DNA from: Oceanicaulis sp. HLUCCA04
Lineage (GTDB): Bacteria; Pseudomonadota; Alphaproteobacteria; Caulobacterales; Maricaulaceae
NCBI GenBank assembly: GCA_001314625.1
Contig: LJSH01000002.1
Coordinates: 30,458 to 94,457, forward strand
Direction: 5' to 3'
DNA length: 64,000 nucleotides
Part shown: one piece after another, positions 22,807-51,707 of the stretch
Layout: the number at the start of each line of letters is the position of its first letter
Numbering within the stretch: position 1 is the first letter of the stretch
Program-made: the position numbers and the translations under genes
Notes under the pieces: generated by a model
Database searches by the model: none
The model's input: only the letters and a program-made list of their open reading frames with translations
Told to the model about the DNA's origin: nothing

Positions 22807-23075
22807 GTCTTCTTTCAGGATATCCCGGCCATAATTGGCCTGCCCAACGGATAGACCGTTCTGCCCGCCCTGTGAACAACATGTCGGCAAGCCGGCCAGA
22901 CTATCCCCGCTAACAGCCCCACCGGGCGGTATGCGGCCAGATCATCAGACCTGCCCACATTGTAGCCCCGCTGATCCCCGGATGGCGCTCACGATGCGGC
23001 GCAAATCCGGCGCGATGTGCATTATGCCCGGCGATAGCTGGCCCATTTTAGCGGCAAGGCCGTCCAGCCAATATT

Positions 23076-23090
23076 TTAACCATTTGTTAA
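23076..23090. promoter_or_regulatory. CtrA binding site in oriC
   Basis: TTAACCATTTGTTAA is an exact TTAA-N7-TTAA full site, and its left half extends to the favoured TTAACC. A second, imperfect site TGAA-N7-TTAA follows at 23097-23111. In Caulobacter CtrA binds such sites in Cori and blocks initiation in swarmer cells. The sites sit inside the A+T-rich tract expected to melt. Confidence 0.85.
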
Positions 23091-23201
23091 AAGGTATGAA
23101 TTTTGAGTTAACCGCGCAGTTCACACTTCGGCATCAGCAGATCTGAAAAACCTGTTTCCACAGGCTGTGAACTGAACGGATAAAAGGGTAATCAGACCGG
23201 G

Positions 23202-23210
23202 TTATCCACC
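23202..23210 (+). promoter_or_regulatory. DnaA box
   Basis: TTATCCACC matches the DnaA consensus TTATCCACA at 8 of 9 positions. It lies about 110 bp from the CtrA site and close to the A+T-rich tract at 23232-23262. Other candidates in the region are weaker. Confidence 0.7.
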
Positions 23211-23322
23211 CTATCGGCAGCCCTACGACTCCACTCTTTCAAGATTCTCTTTTTTAAAGAGCTCACAGAAGAGGTGGGAAATCCGGCAAAGCCCGGCTCC
23301 TGCGCAACAGGACATCGCGTTC

Positions 23323-24345
23323 ATGACACATCGCCCCCTCCTTCAGGTTCTTTCAGGCCAGACCTTGAGCCCTCCGCCTGTCTGGCTGATGCGCCAGGCC
23401 GGGCGATACCTGCCGGAATACCGTGCGGTCAGGGCAGAGCAACCCGACTTCATTGCGTTTTGTCTCAACCCGCAAGCGGCTGCCGAGGTGACATTGCAAC
23501 CCATCCGGCGCTACGGGTTTGATGCCTCGATCGTCTTTGCCGACATTCTGCTGATACCCCATGCGATGGGCCAGAAGGTCTGGTTTGAAAAGGGCGAGGG
23601 CCCTCGCCTCAGTCCGATGAGCCTTGAACAGCTCGCCGCTCTGAAACCCGAAGGCGCGGCAAAACGCCTGTCTGCCGTTTGCGAGACATTGACGCGGGTG
23701 CGCGCAGGGCTGCCCGAGACATGCACATTGATCGGGTTCGCCGGGGCACCCTGGACAGTGGCAACCTACATGATTGAAGGCGGCGGCTCGAAGGATCGCT
23801 GGAAAGCCCGCACTGCGGCCTGGTCTGAACCCGGCATGATGGACCGGCTGCTGGCAAATCTGGCAGATTCCACGGCCGATTATCTGATCGAACAGGCAAA
23901 ATCGGGCGCCGATGTCCTGAAACTCTTTGAAAGCTGGGCAGAAGGCTTGCCGGCGCCCCTGTTTGACAGGGTCGTGATCGCGCCGACACGGCGCATTGTC
24001 CAACGCGTCCGCGCTGCGGGAATAACCGCCCCGATTATCGGCTTTCCCAAAGGTGCAGGGCCCCACTATCCGCGCTATGCAGCCGAGACCGGCATTGATG
24101 CCATCGCGACCGATCACGGGCTGGATACGGGCTGGGCGGTAAACAACCTGCCCGCATCCATGCCGGTCCAGGGCCAGCTCGATCCGGCGGTTCTCAGGGC
24201 AGGCGGTGCGGCGCTTCAGTCCGAGGTCAGGCGTTTGCTCGACGCGTGGGCAGGGCGGCCCTATGTGTTCAATCTCGGTCACGGGATAAATCCTGATGTG
24301 CCGCCAGATCATGTGAGCGAGCTGCTGGCCCATATTCGCGGCTGA
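23323..24345 (+). CDS. hemE: Uroporphyrinogen III decarboxylase
   Basis: 340 residues. The N-terminal signature PPVWLMRQAGRYLPEYR (Arg residues that bind substrate carboxylates) and the second signature GFAGAPWTVATYMIEGGGSKD are both intact; the C-terminal YVFNLGHGINPDVPPDHV is also family-specific. The enzyme removes four acetate carboxyls from uroporphyrinogen III in haem synthesis. It starts at the right edge of the origin region, as in Caulobacter, where the promoter of hemE runs through the origin. hemH follows after 31 bp. Confidence 0.97.
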   Translation: MTHRPLLQVLSGQTLSPPPVWLMRQAGRYLPEYRAVRAEQPDFIAFCLNPQAAAEVTLQPIRRYGFDASIVFADILLIPHAMGQKVWFEKGEGPRLSPMSLEQLAALKPEGAAKRLSAVCETLTRVRAGLPETCTLIGFAGAPWTVATYMIEGGGSKDRWKARTAAWSEPGMMDRLLANLADSTADYLIEQAKSGADVLKLFESWAEGLPAPLFDRVVIAPTRRIVQRVRAAGITAPIIGFPKGAGPHYPRYAAETGIDAIATDHGLDTGWAVNNLPASMPVQGQLDPAVLRAGGAALQSEVRRLLDAWAGRPYVFNLGHGINPDVPPDHVSELLAHIRG

Positions 24346-29526: not shown

Positions 29527-30852
29527 ATGTCTGATACGATTTTCGCTCTGGCCAGCGGAGCTGGCCGCGCCGGCGTCGCGGTGGTGCGCGTGTCCGGCCC
29601 TCAAGCAGGCGCGGCGCTTCAGGCGCTCTGCGGCAGCTTGCCAGCGGCGCGGCGCGCTGTCCTCAGGACCCTGAAGGATCGCGGCGGTGCTGTGATCGAC
29701 AAGGCGTTGCTGCTCTGGTTTCCGGGGCCGGCAAGTTTCACCGGCGAAGATGTTGCGGAGTTTCATATCCATGGCGGCGCGGCGGTGATCGAGGCGCTGT
29801 CGGCGGCCTTGCTGACCGAGGGGCTTCGGGCAGCGGAACCGGGCGAGTTTTCACGGCGCGCCTTTGCCCATGGACGGATGGATCTGACCGAGGCTGAAGG
29901 GCTGGCGGATCTGATCGACGCGGAAACGCAGGCCCAGCGCCTTCAAGCACTGGCGCAGATGGATGGTGCTCTGGCTTCCGTTTACGGCCACTGGCGTGAC
30001 GCCCTGATTGACACGCTCGCGGCCATTGAGGGCGAGATTGACTTTCCTGATGAGGACGATGTGCCCGAAGGCTTGTCGGAGCGGGCCGGACCCCCGCTGA
30101 CAGATTTGTGCCGGAGCATGCAGGCCCATCTGGCCGACAATCATCGCGGTGAACGGGTCCGGGACGGCTTTACGATTGCGGTCATTGGTGAGCCGAACGC
30201 TGGTAAGTCAAGCTTTATCAACCACTTGGCCAAGAGAGACGCTGCCATTGTCAGCGAGATTCCCGGCACTACCCGCGATATTGTCGAGGTACGGCTGATC
30301 CGGGCCGGGTTTGTCGTGTATGTGGCCGATACGGCCGGGCTGCGCGAGGCGTCCGATGTGATTGAGGCGGAGGGTGTCCGGCGGGCGCTGGCGCGGGCCG
30401 AGAGCGCGGATATGCGCTGTCTGGTGGCCGATGTTTCACGTGAAACACCCGGGCACGGCATCCTGGCCATGCTGCGTGGCGGCGACGCCGTACTGTTCAA
30501 CAAGACGGATATCGCGAACCGCAGCGCTGCCGTCCCCGATGGCGTGACGGCGTTTCGTGTATCGGTGACACAAGGTCTGGGACTGGATGCGTTCGAGGCC
30601 TGGCTTGACGGTGAGCTGACCACGCGTCTGGGCGGATCGGAGGCTGCGCCCCTGTCGCGTGCGCGCCATCGCCAGCTCGTCGAGCGGGCCTTGGAATCGC
30701 TTCAGCAGGCGCTCGCGCTTCTGGACGTACGGCCGGAGCTTGCGGGCGCTGAGGTGAACCGGGCCATCCGGGCCTTGGGCGAGCTTACCGGCGCGGTGGA
30801 TATCGAGGATGTCCTGGACCGGGTGTTCAGCCAGTTTTGCATCGGCAAATAG
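29527..30852 (+). CDS. mnmE: tRNA modification GTPase MnmE
   Basis: 441 residues. The N-terminal formyl-THF-binding domain starts [22 protein letters not shown] and has [26 protein letters not shown]. The G domain carries [11 protein letters not shown] (G1), GTTRD (G2), DTAGLR (G3) and FNKTD (G4). It ends FCIGK, whose Cys is the conserved C-terminal residue. With MnmG it makes 5-carboxymethylaminomethyl-uridine at wobble U34. The gene contains a perfect parS site at 30432-30447, read as Val-Ser-Arg-Glu-Thr. Confidence 0.96.
30432..30447. other. parS: parS centromere site 1 (inside mnmE)
   Basis: TGTTTCACGTGAAACA, a perfect 16-bp palindrome and the consensus ParB-binding site. It lies within the mnmE coding sequence as in-frame codons for Val-Ser-Arg-Glu-Thr. 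It is about 7.3 kb from the CtrA box in oriC and 3 kb from parA. Confidence 0.95.
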
Positions 30853-30925
30853 GCTGCGACCTCGACTTGCGCGCCCCATTCGGGTAGAGACGCGCTCCCG
30901 GCGGGCTGGCCGGAGCATGAGAGCC

Positions 30926-32824
30926 ATGACCGACACGATACTGAGCGCCGCTGAGGCGTCACACAAAACCTGGGATGTCATTGTTATCGGTGGCGGCCAT
31001 GCGGGCTGCGAGGCCGCGAGCGCGGCTGCGCGCCTGGGCGCGGCAACCCTGCTTCTGACCCACAAGGCGGCCAGCATTGGCGAGATGAGCTGCAATCCCG
31101 CGATTGGGGGGCTCGGCAAGGGCCATCTGGTGCGTGAAGTCGATGCGCTGGACGGGTTGATGGGCCGCGTCGCCGATGCGTCCGGGATCCAGTTCCGTAT
31201 GCTGAACGCGTCCAAGGGCCCGGCCGTGCGCGGACCCCGGACGCAGTCGGATCGCAAGCTTTATCGCGAGGCGATGCAGGCAGCGCTCGCGCAGCAGGCC
31301 AATCTGCGTATCGTCGAGGCGGCGGCGGAAGACCTCATTGTCGAACAGGGCCGCTGCGCCGGTGTGATTGATGGCGATGGCCGTAGCTATCGCGCCGGAG
31401 CGGTCGTCTTGACGACCGGCACCTTCCTGAAAGGCGTCATCCATCGCGGCGACGAGCGTATTCCGGCAGGCCGGATGGGTGATTTGCCGTCTATAGGCCT
31501 GTCAGACCGGCTTTACGGGCTCGGCCTGTCCATGGGGCGGCTGAAAACCGGAACACCTGCGCGCCTTGATGGCGCGACCATTGACTGGTCCGGACTGGAC
31601 ATGCAGGCCGCCGATCCCGAGCCGGTGCCTTTCTCGTTTCTCACCGATAGCATTTCGGTCCAGCAGATTGCATGCGGCATCACGCGCACGACCGTTCAGA
31701 CGCACAAGATTATTGAAGAGAATCTGGGCCATTCGGCGGTGTATGGCGGCAAGATTTCCGGGCGGGGCCCGCGTTATTGTCCTTCTATCGAGGACAAGAT
31801 CGTCCGCTTTGCGGACCGGACCAGCCACCAGATTTTCCTTGAACCGGAAGGGCTGGACGACGACACCGTCTATCCGAACGGGATTTCCACCTCACTGCCG
31901 GATGCGATTCAGGACGCCTTCCTGCAAACCATTCCCGGTCTCGAGAAAGTGAAAGTCCGCCGCTACGGCTATGCCATCGAATACGATTATGTTGATCCGC
32001 GCGAGCTGGATGCCACGCTGGGCGTCAAGCGCCTGCCGGGCCTGTGGCTGGCTGGACAGATCAATGGCACAACCGGATATGAGGAAGCGGCTGCCCAGGG
32101 ACTGATGGCCGGCCTCAACGCCGCCTTGGCGTGTACGAGCGCCGCGCCATTCATCCTTGACCGCTCCCAGGCCTATATCGGTGTGATGATAGACGATCTG
32201 ATCACGCGCGGCGTGACAGAGCCTTATCGCATGTTTACGTCGCGCGCGGAGTACCGGCTGTCCTTGCGCGCCGACAATGCCGATCAGCGGCTGACCCCGC
32301 TGGCAATCGCTCTGGGGGCGGCGAGTGTTTCACGTGAAACATTCTATGCCGCGCGGGCGGTGGCTCTTTGCGAGGCGCGCGGCTTGCTGGACCGTTTGTC
32401 GCTCACACCGACCGAGGCCGCAAAAGCCGGACTGGCGATCAATCAGGACGGCAAGCGCCGTTCGGCGATGGAGCTGGCGGCGCATCCGCAAGCCGGTTGG
32501 GACGCAATTACCCGGATCTGGCCGGAGATCGCGGCTCTGGAGCGGCCAATTGCCCGGCAAATGCAGAACGAGGCCGTCTATTACGGCTATCTGGATCGGC
32601 AGGAGGCTGATGTACTCGCGTTCCGCCGCGATGAAGGCGTGCGCATCCCCGCTGATTTCGACTATCGCACCGTTGGCGGGATGTCTCACGAGGTGCGTGA
32701 GAAGCTGGAACGCGCCCGTCCGGCAACTTTGGGTCAGGCGGGGCGCGTGGAGGGTGTGACACCTGGCGCACTGACGGCCTTGCTGGCGCATGTCAAACGG
32801 CTCGATCGGCGGCAGGCGGGCTGA
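30926..32824 (+). CDS. mnmG: tRNA uridine-5-carboxymethylaminomethyl modification enzyme MnmG
   Basis: 632 residues from the ATG at 30926. FAD-binding [21 protein letters not shown], then [27 protein letters not shown] and the second signature [24 protein letters not shown]; the helical C-terminal domain closes with [12 protein letters not shown]. It works with MnmE on wobble uridines. An ATG at 30917 is an alternative start. The stop overlaps rsmG by 1 bp (TGATG). A second parS lies at 32326-32341. Confidence 0.96.
32326..32341. other. parS: parS centromere site 2 (inside mnmG)
   Basis: TGTTTCACGTGAAACA, identical in all 16 positions to sites 1 and 3. It falls in mnmG in the region between the FAD domain and the C-terminal helical domain, again read as Val-Ser-Arg-Glu-Thr. 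It is 1.9 kb from site 1 and 0.55 kb from site 3. Confidence 0.95.
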
Positions 32825-33471
32825 TGAATCACGAACGTGCGTTCGATGCAGCCGCATTTCAGGCCCGGACGGGTGTTTCACGTGAAACACTGGATCGCTT
32901 CATCGTCTGGCACAGGCTGCTCGAAGAATGGTCCCGCCACACCAATCTTGTCGGGCGGGCCACGCTGGACGACTTCTGGTACCGGCACGCGCTCGATAGC
33001 TGGCAATTGCTGGATCTGGCGCCGGACGGAGCGAGTCATTGGGTCGATATCGGAGCTGGCGCGGGCTTCCCGGGCCTCGCCATCGCCTTTGGACTAGAAG
33101 ACCGGCAGGTGACGGGTCGCAAGGTCACGCTGGTGGAATCGGTCGGCAAGAAGGCGGCGTTTCTGCGCGCTGTGCTCTTGCAGACTGGTGTGACCGCCGA
33201 GGTGATTTCCGATCGGGTCGAGGCGCTCAGCGCGCCACCCTCTTGCGATGTCGTGACCGCCCGGGCGGTGGCGTCTCTGGACAAATTGCTCGGATATATG
33301 GCGCCATTTGTGGATAACGGCGCAATAGCGCTGATTCCCAAGGGTGCGCGCCACGTGGAGGAATTGACCCAGGCGCGTAAAAGCTGGAACTTCGAGGAGC
33401 GCCTTCATCCCAGCGTGACCAGCGATGAAGCCGCCATTATCCGCATTGAAAGGCTGAGCCGTGTCCGTTGA
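32824..33471 (+). CDS. rsmG: 16S rRNA m7G527 methyltransferase RsmG
   Basis: 215 residues. SAM-binding motif WVDIGAGAGFPGLAIAFGL, upstream helix HTNLVGRATLDDFWYRHALDSWQLL and downstream VTARAVASLDKLLGYMAPFV are all characteristic of GidB/RsmG. It methylates G527 of 16S rRNA. Start overlaps the mnmG stop; its end overlaps the parA start by 11 bp. parS site 3 lies near its 5' end as codons for Val-Ser-Arg-Glu-Thr, just before the word LDRFIVWHRLLEEW. Confidence 0.95.
   Translation: MNHERAFDAAAFQARTGVSRETLDRFIVWHRLLEEWSRHTNLVGRATLDDFWYRHALDSWQLLDLAPDGASHWVDIGAGAGFPGLAIAFGLEDRQVTGRKVTLVESVGKKAAFLRAVLLQTGVTAEVISDRVEALSAPPSCDVVTARAVASLDKLLGYMAPFVDNGAIALIPKGARHVEELTQARKSWNFEERLHPSVTSDEAAIIRIERLSRVR
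32874..32889. other. parS: parS centromere site 3 (inside rsmG)
   Basis: TGTTTCACGTGAAACA, a perfect palindrome 50 bp into rsmG and about 590 bp upstream of parA. With sites 1 and 2 it makes a cluster spread over 2.4 kb. All three share the same codon frame. Confidence 0.95.
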
Positions 33472-34318
33472 ACCGCGTTCCGAGACAGCGTCGCCCGAAC
33501 GGGCGCCGAAAGTGATTGCCATCGCCAACCAGAAGGGCGGCGTCGGCAAGACGACCACGGCCATCAACCTGGCTACCGCGCTCGCGGCCATCGGCAAGCG
33601 GGTCATCGTTCTCGACCTCGATCCGCAAGGCAATGCCTCGACAGGCCTTGGCGTCCCGCGCACCGAGCGCAAGGCGACAAGCTATGATGTGCTGGTCAAT
33701 GAACGTCCAATGGAAGAGGCGCTCATTGACACCGCCGTCCCGGGCCTGGGTATCATCCCGTCCGATGTGGACCTGTCGGGCGCCGAGCTTGAACTCTCCG
33801 CGGCGCCGCGCCGGTCTTACCGCCTGCGCCACGCCGTCGACAGATTCCGCCGCTTCCTGAGCGCCCGGGCAACCCATTGTGACTATATCCTGATTGATTG
33901 CCCGCCCTCGCTGAACCTGCTCACGGTCAACGCGATGACCGCGGCCGATTCGGTACTGGTTCCCCTGCAGTGCGAGTTCTTCGCGCTGGAAGGGCTTAGC
34001 CAGCTTATGCGCACGGTGGATCTGGTGCGTGGCAATCTCAATAAAAACCTTGTTATACAAGGGGTTGTGCTGACAATGTATGACCGGCGCAATAATCTCT
34101 CGGCGCAGGTGGCTGCCGATGTCCGCACCCATTTCGGTGATCGTGTCTATGAGACGGTGATACCGCGCAATGTGCGCGTCTCCGAAGCTCCCTCTTTTGG
34201 CAAGCCAGTCCTGCTTTACGATCTCGCCTGTCCGGGCTCGCAAGCCTATGTGCGGCTGGCACGTGAACTGGTCCGTCAGGAACGCAGCGCCGCCGGCGCC
34301 CAGGCGGTGCCCGCATGA
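33461..34318 (+). CDS. parA: Chromosome-partitioning ATPase ParA
   Basis: 285 residues from a GTG at 33461. Deviant Walker A IANQKGGVGKTTTAINLATALA, the switch word DLDPQGNASTGLG and the Walker B-like YILIDCPPSLNLLTVNAM identify a type Ia chromosomal ParA without an N-terminal regulator domain. ATP-bound ParA dimers coat the nucleoid and pull ParB-parS complexes poleward. AAGG lies about 8 bp upstream of the GTG, inside rsmG. The stop overlaps parB by 4 bp. The set rsmG-parA-parB is standard for alphaproteobacterial chromosomes. Confidence 0.97.
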   Translation: MSVEPRSETASPERAPKVIAIANQKGGVGKTTTAINLATALAAIGKRVIVLDLDPQGNASTGLGVPRTERKATSYDVLVNERPMEEALIDTAVPGLGIIPSDVDLSGAELELSAAPRRSYRLRHAVDRFRRFLSARATHCDYILIDCPPSLNLLTVNAMTAADSVLVPLQCEFFALEGLSQLMRTVDLVRGNLNKNLVIQGVVLTMYDRRNNLSAQVAADVRTHFGDRVYETVIPRNVRVSEAPSFGKPVLLYDLACPGSQAYVRLARELVRQERSAAGAQAVPA

Positions 34319-35220
34319 GTGCGAATGACCGCTCGCGTGGCCTTGGCAGAGGCCTGTCTGCGCTGCTGGGTGAGGGCGAGGACGCTGACATTTTGCGCAG
34401 CGAGGAGGATGCCGCCAGTCAGGTGTCTGCGTCCGGCGCGCGAAGTCTGTCACTGGATCTGATCGAGCCCAATCCCGACCAGCCCCGCAAGCGCTTCTCG
34501 GAAGACGAGCTGACCACCCTGTCGGCCTCGATTGCCGAACGCGGCGTGTTGCAGCCCATTCTGGTGCGGCCGTCCAAGGGTAAGACCGGGCACTACCAGA
34601 TCGTTGCGGGCGAACGGCGCTGGCGTGCGGCCCAGCGGGCGCGTCTGCATGAAATTCCGGCGGTTATCCGCGAGCTGACGGACCGTGAAACGCTCGAAAT
34701 CGCTATTGTTGAGAATGTTCAGCGTCAGGATCTTAACGCAGTGGAGGAAGCTCGCGGCTATCGCCAGCTGATCGAGGCGTTTGGCCATACCCAGGACGAT
34801 GTCGCGCGCGCCGTCGGGAAATCGCGCGCCCATATCGCCAACACGCTGCGGCTGCTTGCTTTGCCGCCCGCCGTTCTTGACCATCTCGAAGCCGGGCGCC
34901 TGTCCGCCGGTCATGCCCGCGCCATTGCGACAGCGGGCGACCCCGCTGCGCTGGCAGAAAAGATCATTGCAGACGGGATGTCGGTGCGCGGTGCCGAGGC
35001 GCTCGCCCGTAAGGAGCAGGCACCCGAGCGCAAGGCCCGTGCCGGTCGGATGGAAAAGGCCCAGAAAGACGCCGATACGCGGTCGCTGGAAGCTGATCTT
35101 GCCGAGCGGCTGGGGCTTGATGTGGAAATTTCCCATCGCGGCGAGGCGGGCGAAATCCGGATTCGCTACTCGACACTGGAACAGCTCGACGATCTGTGCC
35201 GCCGCCTCTCATCGCGCTAG
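34315..35220 (+). CDS. parB: Chromosome-partitioning CTPase ParB
   Basis: 301 residues. A short N-terminal ParA-contact segment (SRGLGRGLSALLGEGED) is followed by the CTP-binding domain: LIEPNPDQPRKRFSEDEL, IAERGVLQPILVRP, IVAGERRWRAAQRA (the GERR-RA clamp motif) and IVENVQRQDLNAVEEA. The helix-turn-helix that reads parS is VGKSRAHIANTLRLLALP. The C-terminal dimer domain ends DDLCRRL. It loads at parS, slides as a CTP clamp and marks the origin region. It converges with holA across 24 bp. Confidence 0.97.
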   Translation: MSANDRSRGLGRGLSALLGEGEDADILRSEEDAASQVSASGARSLSLDLIEPNPDQPRKRFSEDELTTLSASIAERGVLQPILVRPSKGKTGHYQIVAGERRWRAAQRARLHEIPAVIRELTDRETLEIAIVENVQRQDLNAVEEARGYRQLIEAFGHTQDDVARAVGKSRAHIANTLRLLALPPAVLDHLEAGRLSAGHARAIATAGDPAALAEKIIADGMSVRGAEALARKEQAPERKARAGRMEKAQKDADTRSLEADLAERLGLDVEISHRGEAGEIRIRYSTLEQLDDLCRRLSSR

Positions 35221-51692: not shown

Positions 51693-51707
51693 TTAAGGCG
51701 TGATTAA
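51693..51707. promoter_or_regulatory. CtrA binding site upstream of eipA
   Basis: TTAAGGCGTGATTAA is an exact TTAA-N7-TTAA site, 81 bp upstream of the eipA start in the 160-bp gap between eipA and the BLUF gene (both leftward). It fits known CtrA control of eipA in Brucella. Only one other exact site was found in this window, in oriC. Confidence 0.7.

Follow-up and report, generated by a model that had tools for sequence, protein, structure and literature searches.

Intragenic parS sites, the centromeres on which ParB acts, are already established in Caulobacter crescentus (PMC5815017) and Pseudomonas aeruginosa (PMC4368675), as described in the available parts of both reports. In Caulobacter the sites fall in essential or high-fitness-cost genes and hence, according to its authors, cannot be ablated, while in P. 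aeruginosa 9 of the 10 predicted sites (parS1-10) most likely lie in coding sequence, and coding sites were mutated there without changing the protein. Closer to the organism studied here, purified ParB of Hyphomonas neptunium shifts a 16-mer and not its 2-base mutant (PMC6650430, available part). The identical 16-mer, the exact 16-bp parS palindrome TGTTTCACGTGAAACA, occurs three times in a 64,000-nucleotide stretch of Oceanicaulis sp. HLUCCA04 (hereafter the window), once each in mnmE, mnmG, and rsmG, and always as the peptide Val-Ser-Arg-Glu-Thr (VSRET). We put the probability at about 93% that these palindromes are the chromosome's parS sites, with ParB binding fixing VSRET and the three proteins tolerating it.

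Three parS palindromes within genes next to parAB

The first site (30432-30447) forms codons 303-307 of mnmE, the second (32326-32341) residues 468-472 of MnmG, counted from a start at 30926, and the third (32874-32889) codons 18-22 of rsmG; all are exact matches, listed without a strand. Together they span less than 2.5 kb, and their ends stand about 3.0, 1.1, and 0.6 kb upstream of the start of parA (33461), which bears out an earlier note on this DNA that had described three identical copies in these genes, all within 3 kb of parA. A scan of the window allowing up to 3 mismatches returned nothing beyond these three, and 100 shuffled windows scanned at the same threshold gave a mean of 0.11 matches and never three. 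In the genome as searched (2,758,551 bases in 9 contigs), the three were also the only exact copies, so that all the exact parS located in Oceanicaulis sp. HLUCCA04 are intragenic; one further palindrome resembling parS, TGTTTCACGTGCCACA, differs from it at 2 positions and was located at position 13663 of contig C1, about 17 kb to the left of the window. A chance occurrence of the palindromes is refuted by the low expectation even with 3 mismatches and by the keeping of the sites across families, and its probability is vanishingly small.

The palindromes might instead be the sites of another protein or encode an RNA hairpin, which we regard as very improbable. The exact parS consensus adjoins parAB in the window, and some relatives keep parS between genes of the same operon. 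The electrophoretic mobility shift assay in H. neptunium used this same 16-mer, and ParB of the window carries R173, T179, A184, and G201 (Caulobacter numbering, fixed by setting GKSR at 170-173), the residues reported as parS-specific and not Noc-specific in Caulobacter ParB (PMC7383237, available part). It also carries the contacts Q162, G170, K171, S172, N178, and R204, and it scored 212.5 with the Noc model TIGR04285, under the cut-off of 315.

All three sites are written GTT TCA CGT GAA ACA. The common frame is weak evidence by itself and was given little weight, because one of the three frames of the palindrome holds a TGA stop, leaving two that can code only for VSRET or FHVK, on either strand alike; the prior for all three sites to use the same one of the two is 1/4. 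Across nine genes of the window (hosts included), the five codons represent 14%, 11%, 19%, 46%, and 17% of the codons for their residue, and the chance that VSRET would be written exactly as parS with this usage is 2.3e-4. The wording of the earlier note, that the palindrome always reads V-S-R-E-T, describes the window correctly and was rejected as a rule, since other families have intergenic sites or read parS as FHVK, at MnmG residue 474 (25 of 159 rows) as well as near MnmG starts.

Mechanistically, ParB, encoded 1.4-3.9 kb downstream, would load on the three sites and slide outward from them, building a partition complex that ParA would move. The sites would lie in coding DNA because the stretch beside parAB is nearly all genes; selection on ParB binding would then fix the 16 bases and force the five residues, which the proteins may tolerate because this peptide is acceptable in the loops or helix starts where the sites came to lie. 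What was observed is sequence, frame, codon conservation, distribution, and the predicted structures of two proteins, and from these we infer that the sites bind ParB and serve segregation in Oceanicaulis sp. HLUCCA04.

VSRET and its codons in RsmG across the Alphaproteobacteria

The alphaproteobacterial RsmG set (n=174) comprised the window, 59 genomes of its order, 14 named loci, and 100 genomes from across the class. RsmG was found in 60 of 61 order genomes, the window's own included, and the rsmG region was read in 59; the named loci were 15 of 63 less L105, a duplicate of L081. The class-wide sample held 134 genomes, of which 11 had no RsmG match, and 100 of 121 further genomes with a match were read. 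As 18 of the 21 left unread had E-values of 2.5e-25 or worse, fast-evolving genomes are thus under-sampled in these counts.

VSRET stood at the homologous RsmG column in 128 of the 174 loci (the window, 43/59 order, 9/14 named, and 75/100 class-wide), and every one of the 128 was within 2 bases of parS, with 99 exact, 17 at one mismatch, and 12 at two. Exact inner 15-mers numbered 102 of 127, where 0.195 would be expected from the codon usage of each locus, and inner mismatches averaged 0.22 against an expected 4.58. The five columns were nearly invariant in their codons (GTT 98%, TCA 87%, CGT 99%, GAA 93%, and ACA 80% of their residue), with codon entropies of 0.06-0.98 bits. Other conserved RsmG columns with four or six codons ranged from 1.59 to 2.51 bits, except one Leu (0.89) and one Ile (1.54), and conserved two-codon columns from 0.68 to 1.00 bits. 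The pattern extended to five operon proteins at 173 loci, where 206 of 207 VSRET peptides lay within 2 bases of parS, the single exception being the MnmG of one locus (L102) with 3 mismatches. The earlier note had set against its own account the case of most relatives having the pentapeptide without the palindrome; they almost never do, and its claim of selection on ParB binding is strengthened by these counts. More generally, a parS with at most one mismatch was present somewhere in the stretch read at 163 of 174 loci, and an exact one in 49 of 61 order genomes, with 0 matches to a reversed-pattern control in the same 61.

Among the 46 RsmG lacking VSRET, six retain parS within 2 bases (ASRET, VSHET twice, VPRET, VPRGT, and VSCET), and one further locus (L208) reads VPRET with 3 mismatches; in the remainder the residues at this place were varied, and over all 46, Ser or Thr occupied the second place in 24 and Glu the fourth in 23. 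These data bear on whether RsmG, MnmG, and MnmE could need VSRET as a protein motif, with the palindrome as a by-product. The peptide does suit the RsmG helix start (residue-profile ranks are given below), but the codons are nearly fixed though four of the five residues have four or six, no RsmG encodes VSRET by DNA farther than 2 mismatches from parS, the sequences without it are varied, and the MnmG of other families reads the same DNA as FHVK. We therefore rejected the protein motif on the RsmG codon data and consider it highly unlikely. The sequence comparisons indicate instead that the DNA site, and not the protein, dictates the five residues, in rsmG across most of the class.

A separate feature of the rsmG codons was seen in the C-terminal part (33361-33368), where a Glu-Leu pair is GAA TTG in most alphaproteobacteria (GAA in 82% of 172 Glu and TTG in 85% of 126 Leu). 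Often followed by AC to give GAATTGAC, this is the only other low-entropy six-codon RsmG column. It may serve parAB as a promoter element within rsmG; a clear second element was not seen.

Outside the class, VSRET was found near the RsmG N-terminus in none of 88 loci, two of which (L147 and L154) do not extend over this place; the set comprised 40 of the 65 genomes from elsewhere in the phylum that had a GidB match, and the other 48 loci (L109-L156) of the 63 mentioned above. Betaproteobacterial loci have intragenic parS sites of their own, in the C-terminal part of MnmG (as VSRET) and often at the RsmG end (as FHVEQ). All eight loci of this type (L139, L144, L146, L151, L152, and L156, which are named betaproteobacterial loci, and the similar L272 and L273) had the VSRET-frame MnmG site, with 0-2 mismatches, and five of the eight had FHVEQ or FHVEP at the RsmG end; together these make up a separate intragenic set. 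One non-alphaproteobacterial family (L288-L293, L295, and L296) carried parS (0-1 mismatch) within the parA open frame by the rsmG end, where it is read FHVKH, and 7 of these 8 loci had an FHVKH parS near the mnmG start too.

Ages of the sites and tolerance of the host proteins

Site histories were followed on an MnmG tree built with FastTree from 193 rows (34 of them from outside the class), in which the alphaproteobacteria fall together on one side. Counted as parS within 2 bases, the RsmG site was present in 126 of 159 alphaproteobacteria and required 20 changes among them, versus 30.3 for shuffled labels. When gains are costlier than losses, the cheapest history makes all change within the class loss, and we read this most simply as one gain at the class base followed by 20 losses; the rooted tree has a three-way root, on which the basal gain is counted twice, and with equal costs some regains may have occurred. 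The other sites were narrower in distribution. The MnmE 303 site, found with up to 2 mismatches in 13 of 147 MnmE rows, needed 1 change (13/146 rows) versus 12.5 shuffled, VSRET at MnmG 468 (16 of 159 rows) 4 versus 15.5, and FHVK at MnmG 474 11 versus 23.7. The three sites of the window thus have three different ages: the rsmG site most likely dates from a single origin at the base of the Alphaproteobacteria, and the mnmG and mnmE sites would be later additions in the window's lineage.

The proteins appear to have had a say in where sites could settle. In an AlphaFold2 model of RsmG (mean pLDDT 94.8), a predicted helix (20-36) begins one residue past Ser19, so that in the model V18-S19-R20-E21-T22 is a helix start, presumably capped by Ser19. 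The MnmG model (mean pLDDT 91.6) places V468-T472 in the first turn of a predicted helix (468-490). By alignment, the native MnmG pattern near the sites is roughly R-x-x-x-F-x-x-K; in the window's lineage the Arg of VSRET falls on the conserved Arg, and in other families the F and K of FHVK, six codons downstream, fall on the conserved Phe and Lys.

To score this fit, 18 observed insertion places were ranked by residue profiles, excluding MnmG residues 0-11, the clusters at MnmG 426 and 621, and MnmE 186 and 305; MnmE 51 and 52 were counted as one place, the entry FHVK-139 is one site reading FHVEQ, and several places are represented by one locus each. With profiles from parS-free alphaproteobacteria, the mean percentile was 0.88 (Kolmogorov-Smirnov p 1.6e-7), FHVK at MnmG 474 ranked 1 of 629, VSRET at RsmG 18 ranked 2 of 211, and an anagram control gave p 0.006; MnmE 303 reached percentile 0.73 and beat 0.17 of its anagrams. 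Non-alphaproteobacterial profiles (71 RsmG, 30 MnmG, and 13 MnmE rows) were used too because parS-free alphaproteobacteria may descend from site-bearing ancestors, and with these the mean percentile was 0.66 (p 0.011), with ranks of 6/211 for RsmG 18, 4/629 for MnmG 474, and 20/437 for MnmE 303. Selection at the protein level was approached through avoidance of the parS variants C5 and G12, which would give S to P or E to G. Over all loci, such variants were found at 8 of 208 sites in the VSRET frame, compared with 16 of 114 between genes (p 0.0015), and 2 of 87 versus 7 of 42 in the order set (p 0.005); the test ignores shared ancestry, and the avoidance is suggestive only.

Several observations count against the account given here. 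No exact parS was found in 12 of the 61 order genomes, the window's MnmG 468 place is average with non-alphaproteobacterial profiles (percentile 0.55), and the anagram control with those profiles was not significant (p 0.13). Likewise, the C5/G12 difference was not significant in the class set (5/106 versus 6/66, p 0.34), and the comparison of synonymous with non-synonymous mismatches between coding and intergenic sites gave p 0.08 and was not used as proof. The earlier note had suggested selection on protein tolerance at the three sites. Tolerance helps choose places most clearly at RsmG and at the MnmG FHVK place, and the evidence is mixed for the window's own mnmG and mnmE places.

It could also be that VSRET in RsmG, once fixed, became useful to the protein, so that DNA and peptide are both selected now. 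The site holds one column in 128 of 174 RsmG, amino-acid-changing variants are fewer in the VSRET frame than between genes over all loci, and L208 keeps the near-variant VPRET despite its mismatches; against this, the peptide was mostly replaced in the roughly 20 losses on the tree, and the difference in variants did not hold up in the class-wide sample. On balance we consider such dual selection unlikely, though clearly less so than the protein motif. Under the preferred reading, in which ParB binding fixes the residues, rsmG has probably held a centromere since the alphaproteobacterial ancestor, its peptide, seemingly a conserved motif of this rRNA methyltransferase, being an imprint of segregation, and new parS sites would favor places and frames at which the host protein already accepts VSRET or FHVK.

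In this account one stretch of DNA serves two codes, of which the non-protein one prevails, and the conserved RsmG peptide should not be taken as a functional protein motif. Across the class, the operon would also document the gain, shift, and loss of centromere sites. Synonymous recoding of the near-fixed codons should remove each centromere with the protein untouched, where ablation was barred in Caulobacter (PMC5815017, available part).

Operon context and comparison with described systems

From the RsmG site, counted with one mismatch at most, the median distance downstream to parA is 569 bp (n=120), and in the other direction the nearest parS typically stands some 0.5 or 2 kb off (n=106). 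The spread of Caulobacter ParB around one parS site in E. coli reached about 2 kb at most (PMC5815017, available part). Further embeddings were seen in single groups. In one family of the order, three loci (L071, L075, and L091) are without the RsmG site; their parA open frame contains a parS with one mismatch, which codes for VSRET or VPRET. In two AT-rich alphaproteobacteria (L219 and L228, GC 0.33 and 0.39), MnmE carries an exact parS immediately past a TKxD/NKxD-type motif, another embedding loop.

The host genes and parAB lie on the forward strand in the common order mnmE-mnmG-rsmG-parA-parB. MnmE (29527-30852; NF003661, 544.8 bits, cut-off 380), MnmG (30926-32824, this start being assumed in a frame open from 30809; TIGR00136, 791.9 bits, cut-off 524.85), RsmG (GidB; 32824-33471; TIGR00138, 110.1 bits, cut-off 99.5), and HemE all exceed NCBIfam equivalog cut-offs, and ParB (34315-35220; TIGR00180, 194.9 bits, cut-off 58.45) exceeds its domain cut-off. 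ParA (33461-34318) was named from the gene order, its ParA-superfamily matches all being below model cut-offs. By RsmG, the nearest named loci are Oceanicaulis (62% identity) and an uncultured Robiginitomaculum, Hyphomonas johnsonii, and Parvularculaceae (43-47%).

The replication origin (oriC) is probably the gap upstream of hemE (22891-23322, no strand assigned; hemE starts at 23323), which contains an 8-base DnaA-type match at 23202 and a CtrA-type match at 23076. The cumulative GC skew has its minimum near 24-30 kb of the window. The 9-base DnaA motif was absent from this gap and matched the opposite strand at 33309; another CtrA-type match stands at 51693. With this putative origin the sites would lie 7-10 kb to its right, as the earlier note had placed them.

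In the literature searched, no paper was found that joins VSRET with parS, or rsmG with parS, ParB, and chromosome segregation. The class-wide rsmG site, the VSRET imprint, and the two-frame use of MnmG were likewise not found among the matches listed and may already be in print, for example in Livny et al. 2007, reportedly a survey of parS sites. Two papers matched parS, gidB, and Alphaproteobacteria, PMC2099444 and PMC6315104, the latter with no gidB in its main text.

Among described systems, the ParABS locus of H. neptunium is alike in having parS upstream of parAB and parAB about 7 kb from hemE, and differs in having two parS sites to the window's three (PMC6650430, available part); at the related H. 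johnsonii locus (L096), parS is read as FHVK in MnmG and as VSRET in RsmG. Caulobacter crescentus, also an alphaproteobacterium, has its parS cluster about 8 kb from ori with the five strongest sites within 5 kb, but it possesses five strong and two weak sites (PMC5815017, available part). P. aeruginosa, similar in that most of its predicted parS sites probably lie in coding sequence, differs in being a gammaproteobacterium.

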